This document shows, one piece after another, positions 5,205-25,545 of a stretch of DNA of 25,545 bases. The notes under the pieces are model-generated. The model was not told the DNA's origin and ran no database searches. It saw nothing but the letters and a program-made list of their open reading frames with translations. A program made the position numbers and the translations under genes. Every line of letters starts with the position of its first letter. Position 1 is the first letter of the stretch. Origin of the DNA: a virus; IMG/VR virus record IMGVR_UViG_3300009149_000244, positions 1 to 25,545 of that record; one strand, 5' to 3'.

Positions 5205-8200
5205 ATGATTTCTGAAAATACACTAAATCTTTTACCTACAAACTCTTTAGCGGCTTTGTCTAACGGTCTTACTCAAAAGGGCCTAGATGAGCAATCGGAG
5301 TTGTCTGCGGAAAAAGCACGCTCCGATAAAATGAACGGTGTATCTGAAGTTGAAAATACGGAAGGCGGTAGGACGACATTTTCCTTAAAGAATACTTTAG
5401 CGACGATTAAATCTGCTGTAGAGATTGCGGGGATGGCTAAAAATGTTTATGATATGGTTAAAACGCTGGTAGATGGTGAGGAAGAGCCTTACGAGCCTGA
5501 CTCCATCGCGCCTGGAACCGATACCAGCCCAGCCGCTATCGACGTTATGGGCTCAGACCTTAGCGACCAAATAGGTGACGGTGATTCTCAAGCAGGTACC
5601 TCAACCGCTTTAGACCTGCAGAGGCTTGAATCCTCCCAAAATATTATCCGATTGCAAGGGGAGTTAGCGCAGACTATCACTCAAATAGAGTCCGTAAATG
5701 AAGTTATAAAAAAGAGAGCTTCGGGAGAGTTACCAAGTCCAAAAGTTAATTTTAGTAGAGTGCAAGACGCCTTAGAGAATACACTCGCAGAGCTAGGGCA
5801 GTCTGGGGCGTTTACCGCAGAGCAGTTAGATATTATTACTAAGAATCTTGAACGCGCCACTGAGGCCAATTTAGATACCTTTGAGGCTCTGGTCGAGAAT
5901 AAAATTGTAATTCCTTTTGTTGAGAACTCCGCAGCCATAGACATAATAGCGGCTCAACTGCTTGACACTGAAATAGTCGATGAGGATGCTTCCATCTTTA
6001 GAACGGTCTACGGGCCTCCTATATCCACTACTGGAAAATTTATTTTATCTCAAGATGGAATCTACTATGATTCTAGGAATGGCTCGATTCCCTATGTGAC
6101 TGCCATGAAGATTGATTCCCGTTCATGGGAATTACGGTACGCGGCTAACCGAGGAGGTAAAGGGCAGTTATATAATAATGATAACTCCCAGAGGTTCGCA
6201 GATACCATCCTATCCTATGAGTATCAAAATGAGTCTGGGGCTGTTAAAGATTTCTATAAGTATGACGATGTTTTGGCAAATTTAGAGAATGACCGAAATC
6301 TTCAGGTACAGTCAGTTTCGGGCAGGATAGATGATATGCTTAGTGAAGGGTATGAGCTTTCATCTGCCATTATTAAAAACTACAAGGAGAGCTATGCAAG
6401 CATTGGTCATGCTTACGAAAGCAAGATTAAAAAGCGTAAGAAACAACTTCAAATTGCGGCTCTATTTGGCCCGTTTGGGGTTACTACCCCTGGAGATATA
6501 GAGGGCCCAGGAGAGTTTTATAGGTTAGACGCTTTTACAGCAGCAGACCCAATTGATTTACTTCAATGTGGCATTGAGGAACCCTTCCTAACTCATACAT
6601 ACGCCAACAATGGGCAGAATATAGCAGGCGAGCCGTTAGATACGGTGCATGTTCCAATTCCAAGAATCCCCATTAATGATTTTTCTTATCTGAAAGATGT
6701 AGGTTTAATTCCAGGTTTAAACTTTCAGGAAGATACAATGTTGCATTCATCAGATTTGGATGAGACTACGTCTCCCCGCGCTCCCGTGTACTTAGAGCAG
6801 GGGCCTGGGGAACCTATTCAAGCTATCCCCGAAATGTCCATAGCTCCTATGGGGGTAACTGACTGGGTTAATACCTCTGGGGATACAGCCCTTTCTGGTA
6901 CGGTGCCTTTCCTTAGGACACTCGATAGCTCTATAGTGCAGGATAAGCTTGTCGTTTGTTATAACTTTCTAGAACCAAGTGCTGTTGTAGCTCCAAGCTC
7001 CACCACTTTTGGAGTTACTAATTACGTTAATGGAGGTTATCCTTTAAATGCAAAGATGGTAGGCTCTTCTGCCTCATCCATTTTCGTTTCAGGGGTGACC
7101 ATTCCTTATTTAACAGGCTCCTTGCATAATATAAACCGTAAGTACGGTCTTAGGTATGGCTGGCTGGACGCTTCCACAGGCTCTTACGTACGCCTCCCTA
7201 ACAATTGGAGAGATAGCAAGCTCTACCCAGCATCACAATCATTAGATTCCTTAATGTATAATAAAAGGGGTTGGTCAATGGATTTCTGGGCGCATACTCC
7301 AGGGCTATCCTCCACTCTAACTGCCGCTCACAGGTATAAGTTAGTAGCCGCAAACGAAAACTGTGGGGACCCTGTAACTAGTGACATTACGACTACAGTA
7401 ATAACGACCGCTGGTTACGGGGGAGTTGGTCAGAACGGGAGTGGTAGAACAAGGGGTATGATTGTAGGGTGGAGAGATAGGGGTGACCCTGGCACTGTAA
7501 ACGCCAGCGGCTTAGAGCTCGTTGTTCTTCCTACAGTATCTCAAAACAACGAGCGTTGGGGTAAGAGTGTGTGTATAGCTGAGGAGGTTAGCGGAGAGGG
7601 TGGAGCGGCATGCTCTACAGAGTACGGTTTCAAGATACCTGTAGATACTCTTACAGCGAGTGGTTATTCTATTGGGTCTGCTTCAGGCGCTTTTACGCAC
7701 TATGTTATAGCTTGTGACCTTCCCACGGACACTATCACGGCTTATGTTAACGGGCAGTTTATAGCTTCGGCTAATGTTAGCACGTCCTTTGGTGTAAAGG
7801 CTGGTACCGCTTTAGATATTCCGACCCGTATATCTGAAGGGAGCTATCAAGACCCTCAAGGGCGATTCGGGGAAAAACTGTATAAGGGAACCTTAGAGGG
7901 TAAACCTCCTATCTTTACCCCCTGGATTTTAGGGGGAGGGTTTACTGACGGTATAGGTCATGAGTCTCCACCCGTCTTCTCTTCCACCTTCCCAGGCTTC
8001 CTAGGGACCAATACAAATGATTCTTACTTTAGAGTAGCTATGGAGGCGAATGGAGGTCCTGTCGGCCAGCATTCCGTACTTTCTACTAATTCTCCTGGCC
8101 TTGGAGGGTATACACCGACAGGGTCTAACTACAAGTTAGCACGCAGTGGATTAGATGGGCACCTAGGAAGTTTCAAGATGTACGGAAAACCCCTATCTAC

Positions 8201-8276
8201 TAAAGAGGTACTTATAAATTATAATGCACAGCGTCCTTTCTTTACAGGAATCACTACCCCCTTTAGGCTTCTATAA
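5205..8276 (+). CDS. Large baseplate-region protein with C-terminal LamG-like sandwich
   Basis: This 1023-residue protein has two clear parts. The N-terminal part is charged and largely helical, with likely coiled coils near 135-170 and 375-415 and an acidic stretch near 90-130. The C-terminal part, from about 570, looks like a concanavalin/LamG jelly roll: WSMDFWAHTPG near 690, HYVIACDLPTDTITAYVNG near 832-850 (the hallmark 'V..D....I..YVNG' strand pair) and GHLGSFKMYGKPLSTKEV near 985-1002 (the usual closing 'G.lg.f.iYnr.LS..EI'). Such modules bind glycans or protein surfaces. The position between spike and gp25-like genes suggests a virion protein at or near the baseplate, perhaps with surface-binding function. 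There is no strong Shine-Dalgarno. Its stop overlaps the next start as TAATG. Confidence 0.7.
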   Translation: MISENTLNLLPTNSLAALSNGLTQKGLDEQSELSAEKARSDKMNGVSEVENTEGGRTTFSLKNTLATIKSAVEIAGMAKNVYDMVKTLVDGEEEPYEPDSIAPGTDTSPAAIDVMGSDLSDQIGDGDSQAGTSTALDLQRLESSQNIIRLQGELAQTITQIESVNEVIKKRASGELPSPKVNFSRVQDALENTLAELGQSGAFTAEQLDIITKNLERATEANLDTFEALVENKIVIPFVENSAAIDIIAAQLLDTEIVDEDASIFRTVYGPPISTTGKFILSQDGIYYDSRNGSIPYVTAMKIDSRSWELRYAANRGGKGQLYNNDNSQRFADTILSYEYQNESGAVKDFYKYDDVLANLENDRNLQVQSVSGRIDDMLSEGYELSSAIIKNYKESYASIGHAYESKIKKRKKQLQIAALFGPFGVTTPGDIEGPGEFYRLDAFTAADPIDLLQCGIEEPFLTHTYANNGQNIAGEPLDTVHVPIPRIPINDFSYLKDVGLIPGLNFQEDTMLHSSDLDETTSPRAPVYLEQGPGEPIQAIPEMSIAPMGVTDWVNTSGDTALSGTVPFLRTLDSSIVQDKLVVCYNFLEPSAVVAPSSTTFGVTNYVNGGYPLNAKMVGSSASSIFVSGVTIPYLTGSLHNINRKYGLRYGWLDASTGSYVRLPNNWRDSKLYPASQSLDSLMYNKRGWSMDFWAHTPGLSSTLTAAHRYKLVAANENCGDPVTSDITTTVITTAGYGGVGQNGSGRTRGMIVGWRDRGDPGTVNASGLELVVLPTVSQNNERWGKSVCIAEEVSGEGGAACSTEYGFKIPVDTLTASGYSIGSASGAFTHYVIACDLPTDTITAYVNGQFIASANVSTSFGVKAGTALDIPTRISEGSYQDPQGRFGEKLYKGTLEGKPPIFTPWILGGGFTDGIGHESPPVFSSTFPGFLGTNTNDSYFRVAMEANGGPVGQHSVLSTNSPGLGGYTPTGSNYKLARSGLDGHLGSFKMYGKPLSTKEVLINYNAQRPFFTGITTPFRLL

Positions 8277-17200: not shown

Positions 17201-17945
17201 TTTCGATAAGACTACTAAGATAAAAACCTCCATCTTTATGTACAGTTGGGCTGCGAACGATATTATTACTCTGCGTAATTGGAAATTTTACACAAATGGT
17301 CCTTACCCTGAAATGGATATGCCCGAGTTCCCAGCCCCCAACCAAACTACTGTACAGTCACCTATCACCCCTTACGCAGAGTTAGGTCATTATACTAACC
17401 AAATAGCTTTATCAGCCTCTCTATCATCTATAAACTTGGATAGAGCTTTAGGTAATATTAACTGGGCTCCCTCCGCTGGGCTTGCTATTAGCGGGGTTGA
17501 GGCGAAATCTGCTTTAAATGCATACGACGTAATTAATTCTGACGGGTATGTACTATTTGGGTATGAAGGCCCGAAATACCAAGGAGGATTACCTTACTAC
17601 GTAAACGGGTTTAACGCTACTTCATCAATAAGCTCTATGACCTATACATTAGATGTTAGCTCTGGAGCCTTAGATTACTTCCAGATGCAGGGAGGTGTAG
17701 GAGCGATAGGGTTACACACATTTAACGTAGATGAAACCTACAGGAAGCTTAAAACAAATGGGTTCAATTTGAGTGCCATTTATGACACTTCGGCCGCTAC
17801 CGCCGATAGCCTATATAACTTAAGTGATGTAACTAGAAACCCCGTATTCAGATTAGTGGCTAAGAAAGTTTTTCGAACGCCCTTGTCATACACTACGGGA
17901 GCTAATAAGTTTATTCGTCTTAGTTGGGAAATTAGATTTATATAA
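14271..17945 (+). CDS. Giant modular virion protein with carbohydrate-binding-like modules
   Basis: This 1224-residue protein has no single recognised family. The ends match the next, much smaller protein. At the N-terminus, GTLSIYQGYLDGG followed by NLIVDGMKEHV corresponds to GHLEVIKLYVDGT followed by NVITSGMGYTL. At the C-terminus, GAIGLHTFN and a closing KVFRTPL...FIRLSWEIRF correspond to INEIGLFSRN and RYFTPL...FSVLFRWTIEF. Between them lie modules resembling carbohydrate-binding sandwiches: one region near 150-400 (LLLNGNFRDY, LNGWEVYS, EYYNFSSTAG), one near 537-680 (LEVSGGATVSGTFEL, QRWFNFKSGGW, VKNLRVNS) and one near 885-1010 (AIVWWSASEGTW, ITLRNWKFYT). I infer a baseplate-attached, glycan-binding or fibre-connecting protein. 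It starts one base after the previous stop and ends in a TAATG overlap. Confidence 0.7.
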   Translation: MQGTLSIYQGYLDGGNPVTESTPIIQERNLIVDGMKEHVVNMLTRIPASSAIDADVSSSYNVSNFTVQGFTLSPNRSAFDRVHALGALSGYVSTPRSPYNNTVYKNLDPLDGTVWAYNSDIPNHQFSSVNVSGGITPNSQLVNPDFSLLDPLLLNGNFRDYSLDRALSGVHMNEILSLYELNGWEVYSVLRYGITSSEFEDTIRLGSCSRYDLKDVSGIYSFLSGTTPSSTYGEADDGILYIRSFQNTAYPPQVADGSGIVKLKQHFTVRTPEILKESVVDGTDNVLAEITAQFSSLSGGAGSRIHLNVRDRTAGEYYNFSSTAGLGRNSWGGSGSPMVFYAEASISGTISEFINIPSSRANHTFSVEFEFYCRDLSDTFKCYFWNSNVNLLRGWRWGNIFSGQGMHRVWDNDYRNPALFINAEGSVGAAPTAVPLSSTTYLAQPFKMEPLKKYSIITAFSGTAAFTAGSDIINTAIVKRFTSDTSSATGYNYLSTSSSFPLRETRLPSNFAFSPEYPPTTPPNSVDLQSATVRPSDLCLEVSGGATVSGTFELPTNNPALLSGEVIRTFRTGVVATDHLKISLRTVGFDANGNQRWFNFKSGGWEVSSGSVSASIYLDSSSIYGSGFAAFNAPQIELNTLIDIVKPNDNNAYDLLLALENGGTNPAFVKNLRVNSYPKTIAQDTQEAFNFTSPRTNQCWHNITYSGQNILSGLTSGNVPNSNTQATSNTINLLGAYPIEAMYDSSGSCHAADSDYRLYLMQSTATTGGAGKAYKFNTINIVDDSLVAATGTPDKDILTSETYVNTQRFDIINQPYVEWADNLNVYPPSSLVHTGACLQSPATIALNGALNQSNASLILAANNNFIEGDYPSCQLSYIENLDEIHLPTSATQRSFTFQYNEAANTVWWGPEPNIKWRACATTKDGAIVWWSASEGTWSEYALSSIPNNEYDGGVLQRATSNVIKTATSTKYDLTNERFDKTTKIKTSIFMYSWAANDIITLRNWKFYTNGPYPEMDMPEFPAPNQTTVQSPITPYAELGHYTNQIALSASLSSINLDRALGNINWAPSAGLAISGVEAKSALNAYDVINSDGYVLFGYEGPKYQGGLPYYVNGFNATSSISSMTYTLDVSSGALDYFQMQGGVGAIGLHTFNVDETYRKLKTNGFNLSAIYDTSAATADSLYNLSDVTRNPVFRLVAKKVFRTPLSYTTGANKFIRLSWEIRFI
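14307..14324 (+). other. GC-rich hairpin with GAAA tetraloop near a gene start
   Basis: The transcript can form ACGGGG-GAAA-CCCCGT (14308-14323), six Watson-Crick pairs closed by a GNRA tetraloop, plus a possible G-U pair outside (14307/14324). It begins 37 nt downstream of the ATG at 14271. There is no U-tract, so it is not an intrinsic terminator. A role in translation or RNA stability is only a possibility; the bases also encode an ordinary Asp-Gly-Gly-Asn-Pro-Val turn. Confidence 0.4.
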
Positions 17946-18526
17946 TGGAAACCATTTTAGATTACGGGTCTGGAGACAGGATTAAAGGCCACCTAGAAGT
18001 CATCAAGCTTTATGTTGATGGTACGGAGGAGGTGCATTTTTCAGATAAAAACGTCATTACTTCTGGAATGGGGTACACTTTACTGGCGGCGTTCGCTTCT
18101 TCAGGACCTGGGACAGTAGAACCGTTTCAAATTCAATACTTTCAATTAGGGACTGGTGGAAACTATTCCCGTCAAGTGTCTTCTACTGGAGATTTAGCGG
18201 CCCCTCTTACCTCTGTACAGTACGGGACTGCAAACTTTGAAATCAGTACTCATGATTTAAGCTCTGGTACGCCTACCACCAACCAGGTCTTTGGAATTAT
18301 TCCGTGGCCTTATATTAAAAAGGTAAGCCCTACTCGCGTAATGTACCAGGTAATGGTAGGAGACGAGGCTGTAAACGGTATTACTATTAATGAGATTGGC
18401 TTATTTAGTAGAAATCCTAACTCATCTGCGACTGAGGGTAGCTATTTATGTGCCTACAGGTACTTCACTCCACTTGCTAAGCAAGATTCCTTTTCTGTGC
18501 TATTTCGCTGGACTATTGAATTCTAA
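17945..18526 (+). CDS. Small fibre-type/adaptor protein (193 aa)
   Basis: This protein has a beta-rich layout common in small phage tail-fibre or collar proteins. Residues 14-45 form a strand pair and turn (KGHLEVIKLYVDGTEEV, then NVITSGMGYTL). FQIQYFQLGTGG is at 61-72, INEIGLF at 148-154, and a closing FTPLAKQDSFSVLFRWTIEF occupies the last 20 residues. The pattern 'INE.GLF ... (A)(Y/R)..F.p..K....s..f.WtI.F' is seen at the C-terminus of many phage tail and fibre proteins. Its ends resemble those of the preceding 1224-residue protein, so the two probably share a fold and perhaps neighbouring sites on the baseplate. It overlaps both neighbours through TAATG, and lies directly before the giant fibres, which fits a role as attachment adaptor. 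The exact role is not shown. Confidence 0.7.
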   Translation: METILDYGSGDRIKGHLEVIKLYVDGTEEVHFSDKNVITSGMGYTLLAAFASSGPGTVEPFQIQYFQLGTGGNYSRQVSSTGDLAAPLTSVQYGTANFEISTHDLSSGTPTTNQVFGIIPWPYIKKVSPTRVMYQVMVGDEAVNGITINEIGLFSRNPNSSATEGSYLCAYRYFTPLAKQDSFSVLFRWTIEF

Positions 18527-21500
18527 TGGACCGTATTTATAATTATTTTGATATTGAGGGCGGAGACCAAAACCTTTCAGGGTATGCTTTCCCTGCGGTT
18601 TATAAGCACGATGCTAGTGGCTTTTATAACTGGGAAGAAGATAACTTACCTATTAATGATTTAGAGACTCGCTCGGATGTATTCAAGCAATATCTCGGCT
18701 TGGACACTTCTCTTACAGGAGTAACGTTAACGGTTTCTGCCGATGCTCCAAAATCCGCGTCAAGCGTGGGTGTGTATCAAACCGTTCAACAAGCGTTAGA
18801 GGTTGTACCTCGCAGGGTGCGAATACCCGTACTTATTGAGATTTGTGATTTTGGGGATTTAGGCGACTTAGAGATAAAAGATATTCAAGGGGAAGGAGAC
18901 GGGGGGTTACAGATTACCTGCCGCCAGTACCTAGAAGATTTTGGTGTAACAGGCCCCACCTTATCTGCATCTTATACATATGGCCCTAGTGCTTTGCAAA
19001 GTATGCCTACTGAGCTTACAGCGGCTGGATTCCAAGCATCTTTGTATGCGGTAGCTTCTACTCGGCTAGGTATTTCTTGCTCAGCAAGTGAGCCTTGGGA
19101 TAGGCATGGACGTATGTATGTCCAAAAGAGAAACAACTCACAAGATGAGATGCAAACACTTTGCTATGCCCCCTGGCCTCGCGCAAATGGGGTTACGTTC
19201 AGTGGTACTACGGTCAACACCTTTAACTTTGAAGGGTACAGTGAATTAGATGACATTACGGTGAGGGAGGATGCTAATCCTATGGCGGGCAGTATACCCC
19301 TTATCGAAGAGAGGTTGCCTCTTTTAAATACTGATTCTTTAATGGGAGTGGCTTATGGAGCATCATTTAGAAAAATTAAGATTAGTAACTGCTCTAGAGT
19401 TAAGTTGAAAAACGTATGTGTAGATTCCGCTTCAGGAGCAGACTTCACGTATCCTAATAATGCTCAATTCTTATGCGATAGAGGGATAGATATTAGAAAT
19501 TCTAATGTCTTACTGGAGAATGTTGCTGTTTCTCGATTTAGAAAGACTGGTATTTACATGGATAATTCTACTGTGAGTACTGCAAAGCACTTCTTTGTTC
19601 ACAGGATATATGACAGGACCGTAAATCAAACTCGCGAAAGTAATGGGGTGGGAGTTTACTCCGTAGATTCTAATCTTATATTTGATACGAGCTCTACAGA
19701 TACCGCTAGTTATGCTGCTAACTCCGCTGGAGCTTACATAAACTCCATCTCGAAGTGCGGTATAGGTATCGAAGCCATTAATTCACAGGTAGGCGGGGGG
19801 GCACGTTCCTCTGATTTAACTTTATCCTACCCTAAAAACGCTGGCGTAAGTGATTTCGACACAACTCATATAACCTGCTTCGGTAACGAGACAGGTATCA
19901 GGTTAGAGAATTCTATTTTAAATTATGATGGACGTCCATCTATATTTTGTAATATAAAAGGAGTGGATGCCTTCCAATCCAATATCACTCTCCCTCAATT
20001 TAGTATTGACTACAATCAGGATGAAGGTGTATATTTAAGCAAATCAGGATTTCAATACGGCAACTTTTCAACGTGGTTCGCTGCGTACGGTAGTTGTAGC
20101 GCAACTCTAGGTGCGGCTAAACCCAAGCCAGCTTACTGTGCCGACTATAACGGTATTAATATTCACTCAGATAAAGGGTCTTCAATATCCCCAGCCCAAG
20201 ACTGCAGCGCCATCCTCAATCTTGATATGTGGGGAGGGTCCTATTCAGGTACAGGCCAGAATACAATAACTCGGTTAGCGATGAGCAATCATAATGCTGC
20301 AGCCCCTTCTATTTTAATCTCTGATAATTCCAATGGAGAGTTCGTACAGTTAGTAGTCGCTACTCCTGGGACAGATGGAGGTGTAGGGGGTAAGTGCGCT
20401 AGAGCAGAAAAGAACTCCACTCTTACAATCCGAGGGACAAGTAAAGGGGCTACAGGGTTAGGTTCCTACGGTACCCTTAATAGTTTAGCCGCAATGGAGC
20501 GTAACTGGACTACAGCGGCTACTTGCGCTGATGGCAATTCGAAGATTACTTTTTCTGGCCCTACTAAAATTTCTCGATACGGTATTGCTGTCCTTGCGGT
20601 TAACAACTCGGAAGCGTCATTTGGGCCTCCTATAACCGCTGGAGAGTCTGCGCCTAATGGGTCTCTTTATGGACTGGACTCGTCTTCTAACCATACCATG
20701 ATTGATTTGCATGCTAATAGGGCGTGTGTAGTAGCAAGCAACAAATCTACGATTAGTATGGAGTCTTTGGGAGGGTCTTCTTTAACCCCCGCATCATCCG
20801 TAGACTCTAAATCGCTGTCTGCTTTATCTGGACTGTATACGTCCGCAACGTCAGGTAGTTTTGTTAGATTCTGCCCTAACGGGTTTACAGAAAATGCGAT
20901 AGGTACTCTTCAGGTAGAGGCTGGGGGCTTTGATACCTTTACACGGACTAGTTTAAGTGGTGCGCTTAACGACAACCATTCAAATATTAGTACGGGAGGT
21001 ATGTGCGTTAGAGCGGTAGGCGCGAGTCAGGTCAATGCTAACTTAGTTAATTTTAAGTTCGGGATGAGTTCTTCCTCCGTTTCAGGGGTTATGTATAATT
21101 ATAACGGAACGGGCTGTGAGTATGATGGCTTAACAACTTCAGGAGGACCGCCTTCCATTACGTCTAATATCTGTGATTTAGTTACATCGTGCTGTGATTC
21201 TGCTGTTACTACAACGACTGCTGCTGTTACTTCCACATCAACCTCTACCTCCAGTACCCTCACTACCTCTTCCTCTACCTCCACAACTATCACTGACCTG
21301 AGTACTTCTACTTCTACTAGTACTACTACTACTACTTCAACCTCTACCTCCACTACCTCTACTTCTACTTCTACTAGTACTACTACTTCAACCTCTACCT
21401 CCACTACCTTCACAATCACAATTAGCTCTCTTAACTATCCGACTATGGACGTAAGTTTACCTAGGTTTGTTGTAGGTGGGGCAGATGTTATTACTCAAGG

Positions 21501-22386
21501 CGATTCTGCCTCTCAAGAAGAGAATTTTAACACTAACGATGTTGAGTTTTCTTGTATTGGAAGTAGGGTTCATTTATGGAACATAGCAGATACTTCTAGA
21601 TTAAATGCCGCTAACCTACTCATTAACGGTCAAGCCCCTGAAACCGCATGCGTTAATAGTACTTGGCACGGGCCAACTGGAAGATGGCACAACGGCGCTG
21701 CTTGTGACTATTATGGTAAGTTTGGGTTTGCCGCAAGTGCTTTTGAGACTTGCTCAATCACAGCAGGGTCTATAGATGGTTTTTATAATTTAGGAATATT
21801 CCGTATTGTTGGGTCCAATAGAGGGTACCTTAAATCCTACACCGAAGTAGCTTATGATGGATATCCCATAAGGTCACAATATCTTGGAGGTGGTTCTCCT
21901 TTAGACCAGTGCGGTGGTCAGGGATATCAAACTATGTTTGATGTTGCTATTAATACTTCAGGTATTGAAGATGTATCCCGTCATGTAGGTTTAGAGTATG
22001 GAACCACCTCAGGAACAGAACCTGTCTTTGGTCGTGGTTTAGCTGGATTACCGAATGAGCCTGGAAAGATTAACGGTCTTATCACTCACGCCCCCATGAC
22101 AGAAGGTAAGGGTATGCTCTGGGATGTGGGACAGCTACACCCAAATATGCCAGTACCTCCTCTTCACTTGGGTTGGCAAGGGTATATGCGAAATTGGGTT
22201 GACGAGTCTGCGGTTAATGTATTCGCTAACGCTAAACACGCCGCAAATAAAAAGGTAAACCTAGTTTCCATTTACCGCTCTACTACCGCTCTTGGAGGGG
22301 AAGGTAGAGATACCTTAGGAGGTAATCCAACTTATGGAGTCGGAGTCCGTTCCCTGAACATGTTTGATTTAGATAGGTTGGTATAA
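18526..22386 (+). CDS. Giant beta-helix tail fibre/tailspike with Ser/Thr linker (fibre 1)
   Basis: This is probably a receptor-binding fibre of 1286 residues. Residues 1-50 form a likely virion anchor including FYNWEEDNLP (33-42). From about 84 the sequence YQTVQQALEVVPRRVRIPV and LIEICDFGDLGDLEI is a typical entry into a right-handed pectin-lyase-type beta-helix. Short repeated strand-turn units such as SRVKLKNVCVDS, GIDIRNSNVLLENVAVSRF and TGIYMDNSTVS continue to about 880. A C-x5-CC cluster (883-890) precedes a Ser/Thr tract at 895-961. A distinct 325-residue C-terminal domain follows, with several Cys, GRWHNGAACDYYGKFG and a final RSLNMFDLDRLV. No catalytic residues could be identified, so depolymerase activity is unproven. 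A paralog follows directly. Confidence 0.8.
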   Translation: MDRIYNYFDIEGGDQNLSGYAFPAVYKHDASGFYNWEEDNLPINDLETRSDVFKQYLGLDTSLTGVTLTVSADAPKSASSVGVYQTVQQALEVVPRRVRIPVLIEICDFGDLGDLEIKDIQGEGDGGLQITCRQYLEDFGVTGPTLSASYTYGPSALQSMPTELTAAGFQASLYAVASTRLGISCSASEPWDRHGRMYVQKRNNSQDEMQTLCYAPWPRANGVTFSGTTVNTFNFEGYSELDDITVREDANPMAGSIPLIEERLPLLNTDSLMGVAYGASFRKIKISNCSRVKLKNVCVDSASGADFTYPNNAQFLCDRGIDIRNSNVLLENVAVSRFRKTGIYMDNSTVSTAKHFFVHRIYDRTVNQTRESNGVGVYSVDSNLIFDTSSTDTASYAANSAGAYINSISKCGIGIEAINSQVGGGARSSDLTLSYPKNAGVSDFDTTHITCFGNETGIRLENSILNYDGRPSIFCNIKGVDAFQSNITLPQFSIDYNQDEGVYLSKSGFQYGNFSTWFAAYGSCSATLGAAKPKPAYCADYNGINIHSDKGSSISPAQDCSAILNLDMWGGSYSGTGQNTITRLAMSNHNAAAPSILISDNSNGEFVQLVVATPGTDGGVGGKCARAEKNSTLTIRGTSKGATGLGSYGTLNSLAAMERNWTTAATCADGNSKITFSGPTKISRYGIAVLAVNNSEASFGPPITAGESAPNGSLYGLDSSSNHTMIDLHANRACVVASNKSTISMESLGGSSLTPASSVDSKSLSALSGLYTSATSGSFVRFCPNGFTENAIGTLQVEAGGFDTFTRTSLSGALNDNHSNISTGGMCVRAVGASQVNANLVNFKFGMSSSSVSGVMYNYNGTGCEYDGLTTSGGPPSITSNICDLVTSCCDSAVTTTTAAVTSTSTSTSSTLTTSSSTSTTITDLSTSTSTSTTTTTSTSTSTTSTSTSTSTTTSTSTSTTFTITISSLNYPTMDVSLPRFVVGGADVITQGDSASQEENFNTNDVEFSCIGSRVHLWNIADTSRLNAANLLINGQAPETACVNSTWHGPTGRWHNGAACDYYGKFGFAASAFETCSITAGSIDGFYNLGIFRIVGSNRGYLKSYTEVAYDGYPIRSQYLGGGSPLDQCGGQGYQTMFDVAINTSGIEDVSRHVGLEYGTTSGTEPVFGRGLAGLPNEPGKINGLITHAPMTEGKGMLWDVGQLHPNMPVPPLHLGWQGYMRNWVDESAVNVFANAKHAANKKVNLVSIYRSTTALGGEGRDTLGGNPTYGVGVRSLNMFDLDRLV
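21208..21408 (+). repeat. Ser/Thr-rich low-complexity linker region in fibre 1
   Basis: This stretch encodes about 67 residues, almost all Thr or Ser, and joins the beta-helix to the C-terminal domain. Its 3' half consists of two direct copies at 21304-21357 (54 nt) and 21361-21408 (48 nt), separated by one TCT codon. They are identical in codon choice except for two extra ACT codons in the first. Preserved synonymous choices show that the copies arose by duplication, not by selection for composition alone. The reverse strand also reads open here as a Val/Glu repeat, an artefact of composition. Confidence 0.9.
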
Positions 22387-25300
22387 TGAGCCGTACTTAT
22401 GAGTATTATGATGTTACTGGAGGGGGGGACGTTATTACGTCTGGATTCCCTGACGTCTTTCATTATGACCCTAGCACCTTTTATAACTATACGGATGACA
22501 ATCTTGCTACTACAGGATTAGAAATACGCGATAGGTTAATCGGACAAGCTATGGGATTTCCTGGTTCAGGGACATACTCAGGCGTAACTCTTTTAGTTTC
22601 CTCCACCGCAACCCCTGACAGCGAATCGGGCATTTACTCCAGCGTACAAGATGCTGTTGATGCCGTGCCTAGGATTCTCAACTATCCGCTCAACATTGAA
22701 ATTGCAGACTACGGAAACCTAGGTGCGCTTAACATTACAGGTATTAAGTGTCACGGAGATGGAGCTTTACAGGTACAAATATTAAATCAAGGCTCAGATA
22801 CCTCAGCGCTTATTACCAAGGTAAAGGCTTATAAAAACGTTTCTACAGTTACCGCAGACCAGTATAATATACCTTCCCAAGTATCGTCTACTGCCTTAGA
22901 AACTGCATTGCCTTTAAAGGTTTCTCAGCGAACTGGAGACCTTACTTTCAATGCGGTAAGCTGGAGGCTTGGCGCTGCTATCGCCCATCAAACTCCCGAT
23001 TCCCAGCATGAATTTAATGGAGGTGTAAGCTTTACCCAGGATATTTACGGTAATTACAACTTCTCCTCCGTTGACGGATTTTATGTAGATAACTATTCTG
23101 ACATTGGCTCAACTACTAAAGATGAAAGTTGCTTAGCTGGGCCTTTCCCGTCCGTTACGTTTGATGGAGTTACCAGTGGCCTCGCTAATTGTTACCGAGA
23201 TAATCCTGTTTCAGGCGTGGACACGGCTTGTGCCTCTTTATATGGCGCGTACTTTAGCGGTATTGAAATTAAAGACTGTAATAAGGTTAAGTTAAAAGGT
23301 GTAATGGTTGATGGGGCTGTGTTCCGTTCCGTTTTCCCTCAAATGGTACAGTACCTTAGAGAGAGCGGGTTATCCATACTAAATTCCAACGTTCTGTTGG
23401 AGGATGTCGCAGTTGTAAGGTGTAGAACCACAGGTATCCTCGCTAATCAATCTAACGTGTCCGTTACCAAATCTTTAGCAGTGTATAGAGTTTTGAGTCA
23501 GGGGTGGGGTGCCTCCTATGCTTTCGAGGATAATGATGAAAATCTAGAGGGGAACTCTAGAGGTGTCGGCATCTTCTTAGACCACTCTAACCTAATATTT
23601 GATACTAGCAGTGCTGAGGGTTCAGGTAAATACATGAGGACCATCGGTGGAGGTTGTCAGGTAGGTATACAAAGCCTTAACTCTTCTATTGTGGGAGGGG
23701 CTAGAAATACAGAACGTACAAATACATACTCTAAAAATGCTGGGGGTGAGGATACTCAAACAGCGCACCTGCAATCGTTTGGAAATGTCCTAGGTTATGG
23801 GTGTTGGAATTCAGTAATAGACTTTGATGCAAGATTAGATTCGTTTTTAAATACATCGGGATGCACTATAGTTAACTCTGAAGTTTCCCTGCCTATGTTT
23901 AGTGTTGACGATAATGGGTCTAAAGGTATTTACCTAGAGAATTCAACCCTGTACTATGGGAAGTTCGCTAAGTTTATTAACGACTTCGGAGGAACTAGTG
24001 GTACAAGCGGCATTCCCTTATTTCAATGCGATTGGAATAGTGTAAACTTGCACGCTACGAATAATTCAACAGTAGCAATACACCCAAGCGTATTACAATA
24101 TAACGACGTAGGTACATGGGGTGGTAATACTGCTACAGGTACAGGCATATCTTCGGTTTCTAGCTGTTCCTTAATGAGAAACCATGGTATGAGCGACGAG
24201 CCTTCTATGATAGCAGAGCCTGCTATTAAGATTGTTCAGCAATCAAATGCGGACATAGTTGGACTTGGTTATATTGGACACGCCTCTAATTATAAAAGTG
24301 CAGGTATGGCTGCAGCCGTTTCTGAGAATTCTAGCGCTAGATTTTTAGGGTTTAAGGATAAATGGACTACGGTTACGTCTTGGGGTTCTTTATCTAGTAC
24401 TCAAGAGTTACGTAATAACTGGGGGTCCGCTGCGCTATATGCAACCAATAACTCTAGAATTGAATTATTAGGACCTACTAAAGTATCAAGGTTCGGGGTT
24501 AATGTGTTATGCGAGGGAGCTTCCCAAACATATGTAGGTTTTCCTATGGATAGCGGTATTGCAAGATACAGAAGTAAGTATGGGCTTGAGAATGAAGCTA
24601 ATCATACTCGCGCTGAATTCCACTCTTCAAGAGCTTGTTTAGTTGCAAACCGTGAATCTCTTATTAAACTTTACGGGCTAGGCGTATCTGCCAGCACAAG
24701 TTCCTTGTACCAAACACCTGGAATGTATCAAGACACTTCGGGGGGGTATGTTACTTTTCTCCCTAATGGGTTTAGCGAAAACATTTTAGATTCTGATACT
24801 TCTGGTGTTGTTGAGGGTAATAATCTTTCTAGGTATTCTAGGAGTATGGGTTTATTAGAAGATTACACGACGGGACATGATTCTGGTACTACGGGGGGTA
24901 TGTGTGTTAGAGCCGTTAATGATAGCGCCGTGGAAGTAGACCTAGTAGACTTTAAGTTTGGAGTATCTCCTTCTTCTGTGTCAGGCTCGTTTTATAATTG
25001 GCATGGCAGCGGTTTAGAGTTCATTGACGATATGGACAATCATACTCCCTTATCTAATACAACACATACTTGTTGGATTGCGGACCTTTGCTGTGAGTGT
25101 AATCCAACTACAACTACTACCTCTATCACTAGCACGACTATCACTGGCTTGACTACTTCAACCTCTACATCAACCTCTACTTCTACTACCTCTACCTCTA
25201 CTTCAACCTCTACTTCAACCTCTACATCAACCTCTACTTCTACTACCTCTACCTCTACTTCAACCTCTACTTCTGTTACTCATACCTCTTCTACTTCAAC

Positions 25301-25545
25301 CTCTACTTCTACTAGTACTACTTCTACTTCAACCTCTACTTCTACTAGTACTACCTCTACTTCTACTTCAACCTCTACTTCTACTGCTACTACCTCTACT
25401 TCTACTTCAACCTCTACTTCTACTAGTACTACCTCAACCTCTACTTCAACCTCTACTTCTACTGCTACTACCTCTACTTCTACTTCAACCTCTACTTCTA
25501 CTGCTACTACCTCTACTTCTACTTCAACCTCTACTTCTACTGCTA
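22386..25545 (+). CDS. Second giant beta-helix fibre/tailspike (fibre 2), incomplete at the window edge
   Basis: The frame opens with ATG at 22386, inside the previous stop (TAATG), and I read it through without a stop to the window end, giving at least 1053 residues. It parallels fibre 1: a start MSRTYEYYDVTGG with FYNYTDDNL (32-40), then IYSSVQDAVDAVPRILNYPL and NIEIADYGNLGALNI as the beta-helix entry. Helix units include KVKLKGVMVDGA and SNVLLEDVAVVR. The GGMCVRAV...VDFKFGVSPSSVSG block sits just before a C-x5-CC-x-C cluster (896-905). Residues from 908 on are a Ser/Thr tract longer than that of fibre 1 and still running at the edge. The C-terminal tip domain lies outside. It is probably a paralogous receptor-binding protein; enzyme activity cannot be judged. 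Confidence 0.8.
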   Translation, partial: MSRTYEYYDVTGGGDVITSGFPDVFHYDPSTFYNYTDDNLATTGLEIRDRLIGQAMGFPGSGTYSGVTLLVSSTATPDSESGIYSSVQDAVDAVPRILNYPLNIEIADYGNLGALNITGIKCHGDGALQVQILNQGSDTSALITKVKAYKNVSTVTADQYNIPSQVSSTALETALPLKVSQRTGDLTFNAVSWRLGAAIAHQTPDSQHEFNGGVSFTQDIYGNYNFSSVDGFYVDNYSDIGSTTKDESCLAGPFPSVTFDGVTSGLANCYRDNPVSGVDTACASLYGAYFSGIEIKDCNKVKLKGVMVDGAVFRSVFPQMVQYLRESGLSILNSNVLLEDVAVVRCRTTGILANQSNVSVTKSLAVYRVLSQGWGASYAFEDNDENLEGNSRGVGIFLDHSNLIFDTSSAEGSGKYMRTIGGGCQVGIQSLNSSIVGGARNTERTNTYSKNAGGEDTQTAHLQSFGNVLGYGCWNSVIDFDARLDSFLNTSGCTIVNSEVSLPMFSVDDNGSKGIYLENSTLYYGKFAKFINDFGGTSGTSGIPLFQCDWNSVNLHATNNSTVAIHPSVLQYNDVGTWGGNTATGTGISSVSSCSLMRNHGMSDEPSMIAEPAIKIVQQSNADIVGLGYIGHASNYKSAGMAAAVSENSSARFLGFKDKWTTVTSWGSLSSTQELRNNWGSAALYATNNSRIELLGPTKVSRFGVNVLCEGASQTYVGFPMDSGIARYRSKYGLENEANHTRAEFHSSRACLVANRESLIKLYGLGVSASTSSLYQTPGMYQDTSGGYVTFLPNGFSENILDSDTSGVVEGNNLSRYSRSMGLLEDYTTGHDSGTTGGMCVRAVNDSAVEVDLVDFKFGVSPSSVSGSFYNWHGSGLEFIDDMDNHTPLSNTTHTCWIADLCCECNPTTTTTSITSTTITGLTTSTSTSTSTSTTSTSTSTSTSTSTSTSTSTTSTSTSTSTSVTHTSSTSTSTSTSTTSTSTSTSTSTTSTSTSTSTSTATTSTSTSTSTSTSTTSTSTSTSTSTATTSTSTSTSTSTATTSTSTSTSTSTA
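25158..25271 (+). repeat. Perfect tandem duplication of a 57-nt unit
   Basis: Codon-by-codon comparison shows 25158-25214 and 25215-25271 to be identical over 19 codons, including the rarer ACA. The unit is a multiple of three, so the frame is preserved. Perfect identity at synonymous sites suggests a recent duplication or ongoing homogenisation. Confidence 0.85.
25275..25545 (+). repeat. 39-nt in-frame tandem repeats with one variable codon
   Basis: A 13-codon unit of alternating Thr and Ser is repeated. One position per unit departs from the Thr/Ser pattern or uses AGT: GTT at 25275, AGT at 25314, AGT at 25347, GCT at 25386, AGT at 25425, GCT at 25464, GCT at 25503 and the start of GCT at 25542. 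The spacing is 39 nt except between 25314 and 25347 (33 nt, two codons deleted). The last units are identical and the array runs off the window. Confidence 0.88.

Follow-up and report, generated by a model that had tools for sequence, protein, structure and literature searches.

At the end of a virus record of 25,545 nucleotides, which we analyzed in full and call the window, a tail gene runs into an array of short repeats in which a single codon per unit varies. We asked what the array joins within its protein, how it changes between related phages, and whether the variable codon or the number of units could serve the phage.

Tail genes at the end of the window

The record is probably a fragment of a genome, and the array lies in g2, an open reading frame on the plus strand that is still open at the contig end. 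It follows its paralog g1 (18526-22386, plus strand), which consists of a beta-helix-like domain, a Thr/Ser linker and a C-terminal domain and shares 34% identity with g2 in the N-terminal domain. Upstream of both genes we found baseplate wedge families (gp25-like and gp6-like, and a weak match to gp53), and in the relative L003 the genes downstream match the head maturation protease and the major head protein of T4-type phages. This makes the phage T4-like, with g1 and g2 as two tandem tailspike-like paralogs in its tail-fibre region, behind the baseplate genes. A small protein of family phrog_5417 is encoded directly before g1 (17945-18526, plus strand), and its domain recurs, fused to a Thr-rich linker, in another tail-type gene that we discuss below. 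Amid the baseplate genes, a 1023-aa protein (5205-8276) has a weak, below cut-off match to the lectin-like Laminin_G_3 near its C-terminal part.

Searches of Pfam and PHROGs assigned no family to g1 or g2, and no protein in GenBank phage records matched g2. The N-terminal domain of g2 (22386-25100, plus strand; ∼905 aa) has orthologs with 91% identity in L002 and 62% identity in L003, and AlphaFold2 predicted it, as a monomer, to be a parallel beta-helix (pTM 0.74, mean pLDDT 65). Foldseek alone gave low TM-scores across the long solenoid; VIA-align of the predicted model retrieved phage tail and other beta-helix proteins with Z up to 22, and tailspikes were among the best matches with Z up to about 20. 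Like the tailspikes of CBA120 (TSP2), Sf6 and P22, g2 thus has a predicted parallel beta-helix body and a gene adjoining baseplate genes, a likeness of predicted monomer fold that comes with no sequence family match. Unlike them, g2-type proteins continue past the helix with a long Thr/Ser linker and then a C-terminal domain that is separate and conserved.

This domain order is complete in a g2 ortholog of L003, in which 1620 aa comprise the N-terminal domain, a Thr-rich linker of ∼390 aa and the C-terminal domain. In the window, the C-terminal domain is present in g1 (21538-22386, plus strand) and its g2 homologue falls past the contig end. An alignment of 16 sequences showed the domain to be conserved between g1 and g2 orthologs, and its profile matched about 70 viral loci. 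The same profile found no relative in bacterial and archaeal genomes, which therefore give no clue to the host, and structure prediction yielded no usable fold (pLDDT 29). The first-pass annotation of this DNA had placed the array between a fibre shaft and its tip, and the full-length orthologs bear this out, since they join the predicted beta-helix to the conserved C-terminal domain by such a linker.

The g2 linker (25101-25545, plus strand) runs off the contig after at least 148 aa, with 53% Thr and 39% Ser; that of g1 (21214-21420, plus strand) has the same TSTST vocabulary by word comparison. Cysteine-rich motifs directly precede both linkers (SCCD at 21180-21200 in g1, CWIADLCCEC at 25080-25100 in g2); they are retained in close relatives and could form a disulfide or metal site. 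Judging by composition, the linkers are probably disordered and flexible. Composition has also been the starting point for a different idea, that the array is retained to carry a sugar coat and would form a mucin-like stalk with O-glycosylated Thr and Ser. The residues for it are plentiful (Thr/Ser ∼90% in the window, 50-70% Thr+Ser in relatives), but composition by itself is not evidence of glycosylation, and we consider such a stalk very unlikely. Only a subgroup has Thr-rich linkers (the window, L002, L003, L032-L034, L040, L041/L044 and L043). The family does not need one, because in the majority of distant relatives the sequence joining the N- and C-terminal domains is not Thr/Ser-rich.

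Repeat units and their variable codon

The Thr/Ser tract opens at ∼25104 with an irregular TS alternation, ∼170 nt before the regular units (25275-25545, plus strand). TRF reported a repeat at 25173-25545 with a period of 39, 9.9 copies and 84% matches, and the array is at least 390 nt long, a lower bound because the record end cuts it. Successive units carry Val, Ser, Ser, Ala, Ser, Ala, Ala and Ala at one codon position (25275, 25314, 25347, 25386, 25425, 25464, 25503 and 25542; codons GTT, AGT, AGT, GCT, AGT, GCT, GCT and GCT), exactly the series that had been noted before, and the last Ala is the final complete codon of the record.

The units had also been described as codon-phased, 39 nt long and nearly fixed at all other codons. 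The phasing clearly exceeded expectation: codon identity at a lag of 13 codons was 0.56. In 2000 codon shuffles it averaged 0.24 and never exceeded 0.36; when codons were shuffled among synonyms only (n = 2000), it was 0.41 ± 0.04, with a maximum of 0.53. One interval between variable codons (25314 to 25347), however, measures 33 nt and not 39 nt. The pattern of one variable residue is limited to the later units; the Val unit (VTHTSSTSTSTST) is divergent, with His as well as Val, and the unit at 25425-25463 also departs synonymously (TCA ACC in place of TCT ACT). The reading frame remains open throughout, as had been said, because the changes in the array are multiples of 3 nt. A reverse-strand open reading frame across the array (VEVEV...) was rejected as a gene and is a by-product of codon composition. 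The exact 39-nt unit had no match in the viral contigs searched.

The variable residue had been called switchable. We found that the Ser/Ala position is best explained by two unit variants, carrying AGT or GCT, that were multiplied by unit duplication. A functional switch does not agree with such copied variants, nor with the relatives, which do not have the variable residue because their entire unit vocabulary differs. Targeted diversification of the position, for example by a diversity-generating retroelement, would account for one variable codon per unit, but it would predict more than what recurs here, which is AGT and GCT alone and not the scatter of an adenine-directed process. In addition, the relatives differ in whole units, and a search of eight contigs, all incomplete genomes, found no reverse transcriptase. 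We therefore regard diversification of this kind as hardly credible.

Length and vocabulary of the linkers in related phages

The relatives are all metagenome assemblies, any single contig of which could be chimeric, and variation in linker length is supported by two independent contig sets. Across 7.8 kb, L041 and L044 differ by only one substitution and one indel of 6 nt, and this indel is in frame and inside the g2 linker. L032, L033 and L034 have 1-3 mismatches across the 7041-nt flank after the array, yet their arrays differ: L034 has an additional 9-nt copy, and further up the array there are differences between L032 and L033. Among the relatives, the shortest linkers have about 115 aa and the longest about 390 aa. 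The first-pass annotation had expected the number of units to vary between phage isolates and had suggested comparing array lengths among close relatives; these lengths are indeed not constant, with in-frame differences between nearly identical contigs. The variation was seen in relatives and not in the window array itself.

An earlier worry over the limits of assembly was justified, as the contigs of the window and L002 end inside the g2 array and those of L032, L033 and L034 begin inside it. An array collapsed, expanded or made chimeric by assembly would fit these contig ends. Linkers of the same kind are, however, spanned within longer contigs (L003, L040, L041, L044 and gene X, described below), and the linkers of L041 and L044, which come from different datasets, agree except for 6 nt, so we think it very improbable that the array is an artefact. 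The longest exact repeat alone was rejected as the cause of the breaks: L040 spans a linker with an exact repeat of 95 nt, and L034 breaks where the longest exact repeat is 49 nt. Strain mixture may add to the breaks in the linker. Because several of these metagenome contigs stop within such an array, the tip domain is hidden from surveys.

The words from which the linkers are built differ between lineages. Between the window and L002, the g2 N-terminal domain is 91% identical and g1 is 94-97% identical, yet both genes have TSTSTS linkers in the window and TTLTTL linkers in L002. In L003, TTEATT words occur in g1 and g2 alike. Orthologous linkers of different lineages have essentially no words in common, even in orthologs with folded domains that are 91-96% identical. 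Within genomes, we counted the 18-mers common to two linkers and compared them with 500 codon shuffles. Sharing was above the shuffles in L002, L003 and L040 and between g2 and gene X in L033, weaker for the g1/g2 pair of the window (0.058, a value that 0.6% of the shuffles attained) and absent for the pair of L041. Tail genes of one genome thus have a common vocabulary in 5 of 6 comparisons, the significance of which is inflated because codon shuffling breaks internal repeats; the contrast with orthologous linkers is a stronger argument for sharing within genomes than the shuffle test. Vocabulary replacement combined with within-genome sharing points to rapid slippage together with a concerted exchange among genes. 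We also noted that the poly-Thr linkers of g1 and g2 in L040 are both made from an identical 12-nt unit, ACAACTACAACC.

Gene X is a third tail-type gene of the L033 genome (L111:1618-3381) and is also present in L114, L115 and L117. Its N-terminal domain is 29% identical to the product of 17945-18526 in the window, and its Thr-rich linker of ∼250 aa has mostly the vocabulary of L033. Gene X contains a 31-nt stretch identical to a junction of Ala units in the window, and among viral contigs this word occurs in the L033 genome only, in gene X. The longest string common to the window and gene X is thus 31 nt, whereas 100 shuffles gave strings of up to 30 nt, and we take the match between the window array and gene X as suggestive only.

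Such shared repeats might serve mainly as crossover points at which phages swap C-terminal tips. In L114, L115 and L117, the 115 nt of gene X that lead into the linker are identical and the 800 nt beyond the gene are 96-99% identical, but the linker and C-terminal tip between them differ as a variable block. This pattern is what tip exchange would leave, and the words common to different genes of one genome fit as well. Gene X is, however, the one clear case, and g1 argues the other way: its linker changed between the window and L002 without an exchange of the tip, because similarity is as high on one side of the linker as on the other (96% and 94%). Hence, we doubt that tip swapping is the main role of the repeats. 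Somewhat less doubtful, and still tentative, is the proposal that the linkers of several tail genes evolve in concert, with words spreading between genes and the vocabulary of a lineage being replaced while folded domains stay more than 90% identical; shared repeats would then become crossover points for tips.

Role of the linker and comparison with known repeats

The reading that we favor, with a probability of roughly 0.78, is that the array encodes a low-complexity Thr/Ser tether, probably disordered, from a beta-helical tailspike to a C-terminal domain, and that its DNA turns over by codon multiples and by the passage of words between genes. The linker would connect the end of the beta-helix with the C-terminal domain, which is probably host-facing. 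Selection appears to hold Thr/Ser richness and the reading frame but not the sequence, which would leave the DNA free to turn over. Units that are multiples of a codon would be gained and lost via slippage or unequal recombination, the Ser/Ala polymorphism would hitchhike on the duplications, and repeat words seem to move between the linkers of different tail genes, which would give each lineage its own vocabulary.

The first-pass annotation had imagined an adjustable stalk; in a fuller form of this idea, the number of units would be under selection, would tune the reach of the tip and would make the array a host-range contingency locus. Its position between the shaft and the C-terminal domain and the in-frame length differences between near-identical contigs are compatible with tuning. 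Lengths from ∼115 to 390 aa and a freely changing vocabulary fit tolerance equally well, however, and distant relatives manage without the linker; adaptive tuning seems to us unlikely. Low-complexity Thr/Ser/Pro linkers between the domains of extracellular proteins keep their composition but not their sequence and vary by repeat copying. The phage linker likewise joins folded domains and keeps composition and position rather than sequence; it departs from the general case in that close phages have replaced one vocabulary by another and several tail genes of one genome have theirs in common.

Tandem repeats that vary in number are known from other genes. The E. coli tolA gene contains an intragenic tandem repeat whose copy number varies in frame between strains (PMC3477136); in g2 the repeat belongs to a phage structural gene, and the sequence of the unit turns over, not its number alone. 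In crAss-like phages, tandem repeats of the BACON domain evolve by duplication (PMC6949934), but these are whole folded domains, whereas the g2 units are short and of low complexity. Searches of the open-access literature found no description of this Thr/Ser linker system, which is weak evidence given that scope. The array is ordinary in kind, being a low-complexity linker, and it is the turnover and the shared vocabulary that are notable. A tail-protein linker can differ between nearly identical genomes, often along with other linkers of the same genome. If the sharing of words reflects real exchange between genes, repeat linkers would be a route by which phages remodel their host-recognition proteins.
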